Source: an uncultured Ignavibacteriota bacterium
GTDB lineage: Bacteria > Bacteroidota > Ignavibacteria > UBA10030 > UBA8401
Assembly (NCBI GenBank): GCA_903958625.1
Contig: CAJBTU010000028.1
Span: 1 to 46,684, forward strand
DNA length: 46,684 nucleotides
Reading direction: 5' to 3'
The notes under the pieces were generated by a model. The model ran no database searches. It was not told the DNA's origin and worked only from the letters and a program-made list of their open reading frames with translations. Below are positions 2,764 to 7,346 of this stretch, one piece after another. Position 1 is the stretch's first letter; each line of letters starts with the position of its first letter. Both the position numbers and the translations under genes were made by a program.

Positions 2764-3921
2764 TTAAACAAATCCGTCCTTTTCCATTTGTTTCTGCTGA
2801 AGCTCCCTGATCCGCTGCTGATATTCGCCTCCCTTTGCCGGCTGCGAAAACATCAGAATCTCGTATGCCTGTATTGCCGCGCGATATTCGCCTTGCGAAG
2901 CATATATTTCTGCCAGGGTTGGCGTTACCGCATCTGTTTCGTAGGCTTGATCCTCCGTAGCCTCCTCCGGCACCGGATGCAGCGGCTGATAATTTTCCTG
3001 CGGTACAATTTTCTCGGCGCTCTGCAGTTTTTCCGCCAGCGAATCAATGTCCGTCGACGGTTGTATTTCTTCCCGTTCGGATTCGTCATTCATCGCGTTC
3101 ATTTCGGCGAACAGCTGTGCCTGTTCCGGAGAAGCAAAAACCGGTTCCGGTTCGCTATGACTTTCCGGCAGCGGTGCGGGTTCTGCCGCTTCAAAATTAT
3201 CATTCACAAAAACGTGTGCACTATTTTCTTCGCTGCCGGATGCTTGCTGCGCCGGCTGATCGCCTCTCAGATAATCATCAAAGGACATCGGGGATTGCGT
3301 ATTAATGCGCGATTGGTTCTGCGCTAAATATTCTTCATTTGTCGGGAACGCTTCTTCGGAGGTGTGCAGTTCTTCCGTTACTGTTTCAAATAGTGATTCG
3401 TGTATGTACGGTTGTTCAGTTGATGATACGGCTTGTTCGGCCTGTAACGGCATGAATGCCGGCTCTTCAGCACCAGAAGAGTCAAACGTGGTGTGCGGAT
3501 ATAGTTCTTCGCTCTGTTCCGGCGAAGATGATTGCTGTTCAATCAAAGAGTCACTGCTTGTTCCGGCCGGTGAAGGTGCAAAATAATTTTCATCCGTTGT
3601 GCGCGTTGATTCATCCGGTTTGTTCGGAACAGAGATCAGAAGTTGTGCGGCGGTTTGGTTGAATGGCGATAACTCCAATGCTTTTTCAAAAGCACTCTGC
3701 GCTCTGGAATATTCTTTGAATGACAGATGAGCTTTACCGAGGACAATATACCCTGCAAAGTAAGTGGGAAACTGTTTGATCCCTTCTTCCAGCAGCTTCA
3801 TCGCTTCGCCCGATTGTTCTTTACCTATATACAGTTCGGCAAGACGTGCAAAGAGCGGCGACTGAGGGTTTTCCGCCATTTTTTGTGCAAGAAACTCTAT
3901 GTCGAATTCTTCAAATTCCAT
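2764..3921 (-). CDS. TPR-repeat protein
   Basis: TPR motifs 'PLFARLAELYIGKEQSGEAMKLLEEGIKQFP', 'FAGYIVLGKAHLSFKEYSRAQSAFEKALELSP'. Likely start MEFEEFDIEF; the ORF track extends to 4047. Confidence 0.8.
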   Translation of the reverse strand: MEFEEFDIEFLAQKMAENPQSPLFARLAELYIGKEQSGEAMKLLEEGIKQFPTYFAGYIVLGKAHLSFKEYSRAQSAFEKALELSPFNQTAAQLLISVPNKPDESTRTTDENYFAPSPAGTSSDSLIEQQSSSPEQSEELYPHTTFDSSGAEEPAFMPLQAEQAVSSTEQPYIHESLFETVTEELHTSEEAFPTNEEYLAQNQSRINTQSPMSFDDYLRGDQPAQQASGSEENSAHVFVNDNFEAAEPAPLPESHSEPEPVFASPEQAQLFAEMNAMNDESEREEIQPSTDIDSLAEKLQSAEKIVPQENYQPLHPVPEEATEDQAYETDAVTPTLAEIYASQGEYRAAIQAYEILMFSQPAKGGEYQQRIRELQQKQMEKDGFV

Positions 3922-4061
3922 AATAAGCCGGTGTTCATCCTCTGCCAATGGCCTAAAATAGCTAACATTGCGTTGAATTGCAAAATTGTTATTATTGAAA
4001 TGAGCGCGATTAAATTTCGTATATTTCTCAACAGTATCCTTACACACATATTGAATACCTT

Positions 4062-4676
4062 ATGAGTTGGTTATTCGGAATAATTGGTCCAAATATTCGA
4101 AATGGTGATCTTCATCGCTATAGAACTTTCCACGATACCCAAATCTACGAGTACGTGAAAGAAGGAAGCCATTATTTTGCCGGCGGCGGGAATATCCAAA
4201 CATGTTTTTCCGGAAAGAATGCAGCCGATGGGTCGTTTTGGATGGGGTTGGGGATCATCCTTCAAACAGAAGATCGCGGAAGCAAAATATATTCCCGGGA
4301 AGAATGGAGCAGTATTGCGCATAATGCGGAGATGCTCAAAGGCCAAAACGGTCATTACGTTCTTCTGACATTTGACGGCAACTTGTTTAACATACAAACC
4401 GATGCGCTGGGATTGCGTACAATCTATTGGGCTCAAATTGAAAATGAAATTGTCATCAGCACAAGAATGGATTGGATCGCGAAATATCGTAATGGTTCTA
4501 CCGTTGACTATCGCAATACCGGGTCCCGTTGGTTGTTGTTCAATCAATTATCCTACCGTTCTTTGGTCAAAGAAACAAATCGCTTGGGTCCTAATGGCAA
4601 AATGACTGTCCGTAACAACCGCGTTACGTTCACCAGCGAACTTTTTACCCCCCCCCCCCGCATTTACGACAATTAG
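4062..4676 (+). CDS. Asparagine-synthase-like protein, N-terminal (class II amidotransferase-like) part; frame interrupted at a poly-C tract
   Basis: MSWLFGIIGPNI... with 'GHYVLLTFDGNLFNIQTDALGLRTIYWAQIENEIVISTRMDWI', typical of the Asn-synthase N-terminal domain. Reading continues in the +1 frame after C12 at 4648-4659. Confidence 0.75.
   Translation: MSWLFGIIGPNIRNGDLHRYRTFHDTQIYEYVKEGSHYFAGGGNIQTCFSGKNAADGSFWMGLGIILQTEDRGSKIYSREEWSSIAHNAEMLKGQNGHYVLLTFDGNLFNIQTDALGLRTIYWAQIENEIVISTRMDWIAKYRNGSTVDYRNTGSRWLLFNQLSYRSLVKETNRLGPNGKMTVRNNRVTFTSELFTPPPRIYDN
4648..4659 (+). repeat. Homopolymeric C12 tract inside the asparagine-synthase-like gene
   Basis: ctttttA(C)12Gcattt read directly. Upstream codons ACC CCC CCC CCC CGC lead to a stop at 4674-4676; deleting one C gives ACC CCC CCC CCC GCA TTT and opens into the downstream ORF. 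Confidence 0.95.
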
Positions 4677-4725
4677 TTCGAGAGAAGATGCAGTAGAGTC
4701 TCTTCAAGCATTTCTTCTGCCGGAG

Positions 4726-5796
4726 TTGAAAGGAAAACAGATATCGCTTGGTTTGTCAGGCGGACTGGATTCCCGAGTACTTCTTTCGCTAATATTGAGA
4801 TCGGGAAGAAAAGATTTCCAAACGCATACCTTTGGAAATCTTCTTGACCCGGATGTTTCCGTACCAAAAACGATAGCGGAAAAAGAACGCTTTGTAAATA
4901 TCACGTATGATACTTTGATAACCACCACTCAGGAACTCACAACGATCCTACTGAGCTATGCCGCAGAAACAAATCTCATTGAACCAATTTCTACCGCGTT
5001 GAGACTAAAGAATGTATTTTCTCTTGATCCTAACCGATTTATTCTGATCGATGGCGGTTTTGGTGAAATTGCACGGCGACAATATATGAACAGACTGGCG
5101 CTCTATGGCGAACGTCCTTTCCGCGACCACAATATTGAACTTATCCTGAATAACCTGAGGGTGCGGAGAGGGAATTTTTTCTCGGTTGATATTGTCCGGC
5201 AAATGGAGGAAGGCGTGCATGAAGAAATTTCGGAGATGATGCAAACAATGCCGGATATCAGGGAAATAGGTCTGGGAAACTATTTGGACTTATGGTCGGT
5301 CCGCGCACGTTTCCCCAATTTCGGCAGCGATGAGCAGGCGCGCCTGGACAAACATATTTTGAATTATATGCCGTTTGCGCAACTAAGCTTTATAAATTCA
5401 GTTTTCTCAATGCCCATCTCCCTCCGAAAAAACGGAACATTGTTCAGAGAGATTATTAAAACAAGTTATACACAATTAACGAAATATCCCCTTGTTAAAA
5501 GCGGTGTCACATATCCGTTTTCTTTCTCAACGAAAGCATCATGGCTTTTTACGAAAATAAAATCAATGACGGGAAAACGGTTCAATGAAAATCATATTGA
5601 TCCGTTCCTTGGAATAATGAGAGAATATATCTTTGATCTTCTTCATTCAAAAGGAGTGCAGGAAAATCCAGCGTACAATTATCCTCATATCCGGTCTTCT
5701 ATAGAAAACTATTATCGCGGCGACATGACAAATAAAAGCGAACTGATTTGGTGGCTGACGTTCGAACTTTGGAGAAGATCCGTCGAGCTGAAATAA
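4726..5796 (+). CDS. Asparagine-synthase-like protein, C-terminal ATP-pyrophosphatase (PP-loop) part
   Basis: 'ISLGLSGGLDSRVLLSLILRSG' contains the PP-loop SGGLDS motif. The frame is open back to the poly-C tract (AFTTISSREDAVESLQAFLLPEL...). Confidence 0.8.
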   Translation: MKGKQISLGLSGGLDSRVLLSLILRSGRKDFQTHTFGNLLDPDVSVPKTIAEKERFVNITYDTLITTTQELTTILLSYAAETNLIEPISTALRLKNVFSLDPNRFILIDGGFGEIARRQYMNRLALYGERPFRDHNIELILNNLRVRRGNFFSVDIVRQMEEGVHEEISEMMQTMPDIREIGLGNYLDLWSVRARFPNFGSDEQARLDKHILNYMPFAQLSFINSVFSMPISLRKNGTLFREIIKTSYTQLTKYPLVKSGVTYPFSFSTKASWLFTKIKSMTGKRFNENHIDPFLGIMREYIFDLLHSKGVQENPAYNYPHIRSSIENYYRGDMTNKSELIWWLTFELWRRSVELK

Positions 5797-5824
5797 AGAA
5801 CGCCGGCAAGCGCCGGCGTTCTTT
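5795..5824. terminator. Bidirectional intrinsic terminator
   Basis: AAAGAACGCCGGC-aagc-GCCGGCGTTCTTT, 13-bp perfect stem followed by T, between converging genes. Confidence 0.88.
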
Positions 5825-5846
5825 TGTGCATCGCTATTTTGCTTTG

Positions 5847-7346
5847 TTACACTGCCAGCGGTTCAACAGCCAAATTCAACTGCGCCAACTTTATGCGGCG
5901 GGCTTCAAGGGCCTGCTGAACGGAAAGTAATGCAACAAATCCATAACCGCAGGTGAACAAAAGCTGAAACGGAACCGCGGCAATTTCAAGGTAGTATAAG
6001 GATGATAGAACTCCAAAAAAGCAGTAGAGGGCAAGGGCAATCTCTATAAGCACCGTCCAACTGAATTTTACCGGAACATATTTCTTATCGTTCCACGACT
6101 GTTTCTTACCTTCAATGCCGTATTTCGGCGTACGGACAAATTCGCTCTTCCGTTTGAATAATCCTTCCAGAACCGCTTTGCTGTTGTTCACGGCAAAACC
6201 CATGCTCCCCGCCATAAAGACCGGAAACAGCATGATCCGTTTGCGCCAATCGGCGTAAATATCTTTCTGTGAATACAGATAGAACAGAAATGAACCGATG
6301 AATGCCAGCACAAAGACCGACATGAAATCAAAGTATGCGTCGAACCTGCCGCCGTGTTTAATAAACGTCAGCGGTACGTTCAGTATGCTCGCGAGAATGA
6401 TGAACGGAAAAACAATATTGTTCGTTAAATGGAACGTGCTGTGAAATTTAATACGGAACGGGATGTCCGATCTCCACACCATGGGGAGAAGTTTCCTTGC
6501 CGTCTCGATCGCGCCTTTGGTCCAGCGGAATTGCTGCGATTTCAATGCGTTGATCTCGGCCGGAAGTTCCGCCGGCGAGGTCACGTCGCGCAGAAATTTG
6601 AATTTCCATCCGCGAAGCTGTGCGCGATAGCTGAGATCAAGATCTTCCGTCAGCGTATCACTCTGCCAGTTGCCGGCATCGATGATCGTTTCTTTTCTCC
6701 AGACGCCGCCCGTTCCGTTGAAGTTGATAAAATATCCGGCCTTGTTGCGGATATTCTGTTCGATCACAAAATGACCGTCAAGCGCCATTGCCTGCGTGCG
6801 GGTCATCAGTGAATAATCGCCGTTCAAATGCTCCCACCGTGTCTGCACCATGCCGATATTTTTATTGGCGAAGAAATATGGAATTGTCTTTTGCAGAAAC
6901 TCCGGTTTCGGAATGAAGTCCGCATCGAAGATCGCAATAAAATCGCCTTTGGCTGTTTTCAATCCCTCTTTCAGGGCACCGGCTTTGAATCCCTGGCGGT
7001 TTGTGCGGTGAACGTGGGTGATGTCATATCCTTTTGCCTGTTTTTCACGCACGATGCTTGCCACAAGATCGACCGTTTCATCGGTTGAATCATCGACCAC
7101 CTGGATCTCGATCCTGTCCCTCGGATAATCGATGCTGCACGATGCGTCGATCAGGCGGCGCACAACATACATTTCGTTGTACAACGGCAGCTGGATGGTT
7201 ACCATCGGAGTCTCGGTAAGCGGAAGATCCCCTTCCACCTCGTTGCGGTGCTTATAATAATGATAGATCATGACGAATCCGTGAGCGCCAAAGACAAAAA
7301 GAATGCTGAGGCAGATGATGTACGAAATCAGTATGAATTGTTCCAT
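5847..7346 (-). CDS. Cellulose-synthase-like family 2 glycosyltransferase, membrane protein
   Basis: 'PMVTIQLPLYNE', 'IFDADFIP', 'TEDLDLSYRAQLRGW', 'QQFRWTKGAIE' (Q..RW motif) plus C-terminal TM segments. Confidence 0.93.
   Translation of the reverse strand: MEQFILISYIICLSILFVFGAHGFVMIYHYYKHRNEVEGDLPLTETPMVTIQLPLYNEMYVVRRLIDASCSIDYPRDRIEIQVVDDSTDETVDLVASIVREKQAKGYDITHVHRTNRQGFKAGALKEGLKTAKGDFIAIFDADFIPKPEFLQKTIPYFFANKNIGMVQTRWEHLNGDYSLMTRTQAMALDGHFVIEQNIRNKAGYFINFNGTGGVWRKETIIDAGNWQSDTLTEDLDLSYRAQLRGWKFKFLRDVTSPAELPAEINALKSQQFRWTKGAIETARKLLPMVWRSDIPFRIKFHSTFHLTNNIVFPFIILASILNVPLTFIKHGGRFDAYFDFMSVFVLAFIGSFLFYLYSQKDIYADWRKRIMLFPVFMAGSMGFAVNNSKAVLEGLFKRKSEFVRTPKYGIEGKKQSWNDKKYVPVKFSWTVLIEIALALYCFFGVLSSLYYLEIAAVPFQLLFTCGYGFVALLSVQQALEARRIKLAQLNLAVEPLAV

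Follow-up and report, generated by a model that had tools for sequence, protein, structure and literature searches.

A run of 12 C's within an asparagine-synthetase-like gene of an uncultured Ignavibacteria-type bacterium is best explained as the switch of a contingency (phase-variation) locus, turned ON and OFF by slipped-strand mispairing and OFF both in this assembly and in that of a sister species. Judging from sequence comparisons, I put the probability of this reading at about 0.57. The tract would then be a conserved and probably functional homopolymer switch, of a familiar type but in an organism and a gene where none was expected.

Most of what is known of phase variation by homopolymer slippage comes from host-associated bacteria; it has been little studied in free-living ones, and the family of asparagine-synthetase-like enzymes is not known to switch. 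A literature search found nothing joining asparagine synthase with phase variation and nothing on homopolymer switching in Ignavibacteria. If the reading is true, a conserved switch at a single locus, in an environmental lineage that is uncultured, would point to pressure from phage, or some other pressure directed at the surface, outside hosts.

The Tract and Its Reading Frames

The features considered, numbered from the first nucleotide of the window (the whole stretch of DNA that was analysed, 46,684 nt), are these:

2764..4047, minus strand: TPR gene, divergent, flanking the site; its real start is probably near 3921
4062..4676, plus strand: N-terminal half, class-II-amidotransferase-like (Ntn) domain, 204 aa, beginning MSW
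4648..4659, plus strand: C12 homopolymer of the linker between the domains, the putative frame-switching element; a single length class out of three is in frame
4660..5796, plus strand: C-terminal half, PP-loop ATPase (Asn_synthase-like) domain, in the frame read with C11
4674..4676, plus strand: TAG stop, which ends the product early in the assembled (OFF) frame
4756..4773, plus strand: PP-loop motif SGGLDS, nearly invariant among relatives
5847..7346, minus strand: GT2 glycosyltransferase gene, convergent, flanking the site

The tract comprises exactly 12 C's, four bases more than the next longest homopolymer in the window (8). Pattern searches of the whole genome (3.99 Mb) found seven C/G runs of at least 8, and C12 is the only one that reaches 10, hence the longest. 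A genome-wide repertoire of contingency loci was dismissed on this count.

The arrangement that an initial annotation of this DNA had described is present: an ORF at 4062-4676, the C12 tract within it, a TAG 15 nt after the tract, and a second frame, open from 5' of the tract to 5796, that carries SGGLDS. With the tract set to each length class, one class of the three gives a product of 577 aa, and the other two meet a stop within about 5-14 codons, giving products of about 203 and 210 aa. The in-frame class needs one C fewer than was assembled. Both the proposed fusion of the halves by loss of a single C and the assignment of the assembled sequence to the OFF phase, with a truncated product, are thus borne out; only that one length class restores the full protein. 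The same frame logic, with one length class in frame, is found in the sister species (G004) and in a distant relative (G342), both considered below.

On the proposed mechanism, the tract would gain and lose C's by slipped-strand mispairing at replication. With a length of the in-frame class, translation would continue through to the complete enzyme (about 577 aa); in the other two classes only a truncated N-terminal domain would be made, with the ATPase missing. Length changes that keep the frame would add or remove prolines in the linker, and extra prolines should be tolerable, because the tract lies in a variable interdomain loop, poorly conserved among relatives. Switching would presumably be reversible, at some rate, and OFF cells would be one phase of a mixed population. 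MutS is present in the genome, so slippage may be slow and the rate modest. The tract exceeds the length of at least 7 for G/C runs within coding sequences that serves as the cut-off for phase-variable genes in Campylobacter (PMC6321876). Candidate lists based on run length also take in loci whose switching is too infrequent to qualify, and a locus that is accidentally mutable, with no selected switching, is not a case of phase variation (PMC11868660).

The Sister Species and the Accuracy of the Assemblies

Among the eight genomes available for the genus, two, each the only one of its species, possess the gene: the source genome and G004 (uncultured Ignavibacteriae bacterium KTt_bin-1621, contig CAIOTF010000054.1), where it likewise sits between the TPR and GT2 genes. 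The C-terminal halves are 81% identical. G004 has C8 at the orthologous position, near 53,560-53,575 of its contig (a comparison of lengths based on one genome from each species), and is also out of frame; no ON copy was seen in the genus. The frame offsets are opposite, G004 being one C short and the source having one C too many. The two sequences differ by one base 3' of the tract, so the in-frame length class has itself changed between the species. Since G004 has only four C/G runs of at least 8 in its 4.2 Mb, the likelihood of a chance tract at the orthologous position is negligible. The initial annotation had looked to homologues for a tract at this position, and the outcome is divided: the sister species has one, at C8 rather than C12, and most homologues have no C tract.

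Perhaps the assembled length is simply wrong and the true tract is in frame. The source genome is a draft assembly of 426 contigs with a single long homopolymer, and assemblies of short reads from mixed strains can give an incorrect run length. Against such an error, the separate assembly of the sister species is also out of frame, and at a mere C8, a length that is normally read well. I inspected all 11 C/G runs of at least 8 in the two genomes, and the two orthologous tracts are the only ones at which a frame is broken. Of the other nine, seven sit inside long uninterrupted frames of 254-740 aa, so that runs of 8-9 in long genes of both assemblies stay in frame; the eighth falls in a short frame of 141 aa, and no long frame spans the ninth. 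Most A8 and T8 runs in the window also sit within intact ORFs. The control tracts therefore lend no support to random homopolymer errors of assembly. That C12 itself is such an error I consider very improbable, and even with a wrong length the tract would be real and orthologous.

The only other C/G 9-mers in the source genome are at G000:C175:7691-7699 and G000:C317:16771-16779. One has no long frame and is apparently intergenic, and the other is in frame in an ABC-type permease-like gene.

Selection on the Two Halves

Selection was estimated between the source genome and G004, with the neighboring GT2 and SurA genes as yardsticks of divergence. dN/dS is about 0.2 for the N-terminal half and about 0.12 for the C-terminal half, at dS of about 0.7-0.9, and by this measure both halves are under purifying selection. 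Apart from the tract, there are no stops or frameshifts in about 570 codons in either species; with neutral substitution at 0.1-0.3 per site, the C-terminal half would be expected to have acquired a stop in almost every case. The possibility of an old pseudogene was dismissed on the low dN/dS and the lack of further lesions. The branches leading to the two proteins in the tree are short and similar in length, which, taken with the selection, indicates that a useful protein has been translated over the greater part of the period since the two species diverged. Translation over so long a period would rule out a fixed frame break for most of that time.

The strongest rival is recent inactivation, because the gene is often lost. 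The tract would be slippery by accident, a mutational hot spot in a dispensable gene, and both lineages would recently have slipped out of frame, as a step toward losing it. The remaining six genomes of the genus indeed lack the gene, their site being empty or otherwise occupied, and copies in G013, G047, G052, G024 and G067 are degenerate or frame-broken: those of G047 and G052 by deletions, with mere remnants in G024 and G067. By the state of these sequences, the gene has been lost repeatedly among relatives. The balance of branch lengths and the selection on both halves speak against recent loss in the present pair, as do the position of the sole lesion, at the same reversible site in two species, and the retention of a long unbroken CCC run though CCC accounts for 18% of Pro codons. 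I therefore think recent loss unlikely.

The degenerate and remnant copies are those at L016/L023, L017/L048, L019 and L037 (G052, G047, G024 and G067, respectively). In the G013 homologue the frame breaks within the C-terminal domain, at a run of T7 (L013, about 2219-2228), which could be an error, as the coverage of the contig is low (about 7x).

Relatives across the Class

The gene has matches in 78 of the 391 genomes of the class, and nearly all of the strong matches are single frames of about 560-620 aa. Among viral contigs no relative was found.

The prevalence of intact relatives bears on whether the out-of-frame tract might be the normal condition, with ribosomal frameshifting or transcriptional slippage providing some full-length enzyme in every cell. 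Both genomes of the genus are out of frame, runs of C permit CCC_CCC re-pairing, and frame-broken genes can be conserved by such means (PMC3711429). Most relatives, however, require no shift. Programmed recoding is further disfavored because it predicts a single conserved direction, and opposite directions are observed: the two species would need opposite shifts, and the run length is not conserved, so that the conservation of direction and site expected of a programmed frameshift fails. No dedicated stimulatory element was found at the tract, as seen in the native sequence rather than against shuffled ones. Slippage by RNA polymerase is ascribed to the weakness of A-U hybrids, with documented cases at A/T runs (PMC6260861), and the tract is C. 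The transcriptional slippage that the initial annotation had offered as its alternative is retained within this explanation, burdened by the same opposite shifts and A/T documentation, and the explanation as a whole seems to me decidedly improbable.

The intact relatives bear as well on a true split gene, with the N-terminal and ATPase domains as two separate subunits. Both halves are open, and a TTG with a GGAG-like sequence is available at 4726. That start is not conserved in G004, the relatives are fused, and the tract accounts for the break without further assumptions. I find a split gene scarcely credible.

The slipped-strand switch accounts at once for the tract, for its differing lengths, for offsets in opposite directions and for the selection. 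What stands of the original proposal of a switch is a conserved tract of variable length, opposite offsets, selection on both halves and the lack of frame breaks at other C/G runs; the surface-glycan role proposed with it is weakly supported. A counterpoint to the switch is that the genome contains no second tract of this kind, where pathogens have multi-locus phasomes.

G342, a distant relative, carries a C10 tract (L139:1505-1514) in the corresponding linker, in frame and about 12 residues ahead of the PP-loop. It must have arisen independently, because G342 is far from the source/G004 pair in the tree. Since the G342 genome has 20 C/G runs of at least 8, the parallel is only suggestive, not conclusive. 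It is conceivable, and I offer it as a tentative generalization, that poly-C switches arise repeatedly in the linkers of this family (in this genus and independently in G342), making a phase-variable enzyme that modifies the envelope or a small molecule in free-living uncultured bacteria. A homologue in G109 has a G9 run (coding strand; L133:1503-1511) near the C-terminus, in frame.

Identity of the Protein

The Pfam family PF00733 (Asn_synthase) matches just above threshold, at 21.3 bits versus 21. With NCBIfam, relatives give only sub-threshold matches to asparagine-synthase and macrolactam-cyclase families: relatives score 20-26 bits with TIGR01536, against a curated score of 267 bits, and neither half from the window is listed at an E-value of 0.01. 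The model of an intact relative (pLDDT 86.5) has a two-domain fold, matching the hydroxyamidotransferase TsnB9, AsnB and the carbapenam and beta-lactam synthetases over both domains with E-values of about 1e-13 to 1e-18. The PP-loop motif SGGxDS and the synthetase fold, by which an asparagine synthetase is recognized, are thus both found. The N-terminal catalytic Cys of the glutaminase domain (MC) is absent: the gene in the window begins MSW, as do most relatives, and the rest have other non-Cys residues at position 2. Beta-lactam synthetase has likewise lost the N-terminal glutaminase Cys.

By sequence and predicted fold, then, the protein is a divergent ATPase like asparagine synthetase and beta-lactam synthetase, without the glutaminase cysteine. 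The first identification as asparagine-synthase-like had the superfamily right, and needs amending in that the branch is divergent and lacks the catalytic Cys. By analogy, ATP may serve the enzyme to activate an acid, after which an amide would be closed or attached without glutamine. Its likely reaction is the formation of an amide bond, or one like it, with a free amine or ammonia on a small molecule or a component of the cell envelope, a suggestion that I make weakly.

Genomic Context

A role in surface polysaccharide had been proposed from the adjacent GT2 gene. That argument is weak, and the neighbor was dismissed as evidence of a glycan operon: the GT2 gene is on the opposite strand, convergent, and is conserved in 22 of 22 genomes of the family, whether the synthase is present or absent. 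There are slight hints of a connection elsewhere. The relative at L040 lies after a flippase and a DegT aminotransferase, and in two congeners, G003 and G005, a small GT2-type glycosyltransferase replaces the synthase at the same site. A glycan link is possible, and a role of the synthase in surface glycans is only weakly supported.

The site between the TPR and GT2 genes (4048-5846 in the window; L105-L119 in relatives) is one where cargo is exchanged. Besides the two congeners just mentioned, G001 has a likely remnant of the small glycosyltransferase and G002, G006 and G007 are empty. G013, G018 and G010 have synthases there, those of G018 and G010 from another clade.

Comparison with Known Systems

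Asparagine synthetase B, the beta-lactam and carbapenam synthetases and TsnB9 (PDB 7ylz, 1ct9, 1q15, 1jgt) share SGGLDS with the present protein and the two-domain fold with the model of its relative. The differences are an identity of only about 12%, MSW or MGW instead of MC, and scores far under the NCBIfam cut-offs. The frame-transition genes that the GeneTack survey assigned to phase variation also have a conserved frame break at a homopolymer, in a survey that covers complete genomes (PMC3711429). The poly-G/C loci of Campylobacter jejuni and Neisseria differ from this one in that the organism is here an uncultured Ignavibacteria-type bacterium, the tract is single, MutS is present and the locus is known from assembled sequence alone. 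The likeness to these loci consists in a long C/G homopolymer within an ORF, a full product from only one length class in three, a tract length that differs between two species (C12 and C8), and a frame unbroken elsewhere.
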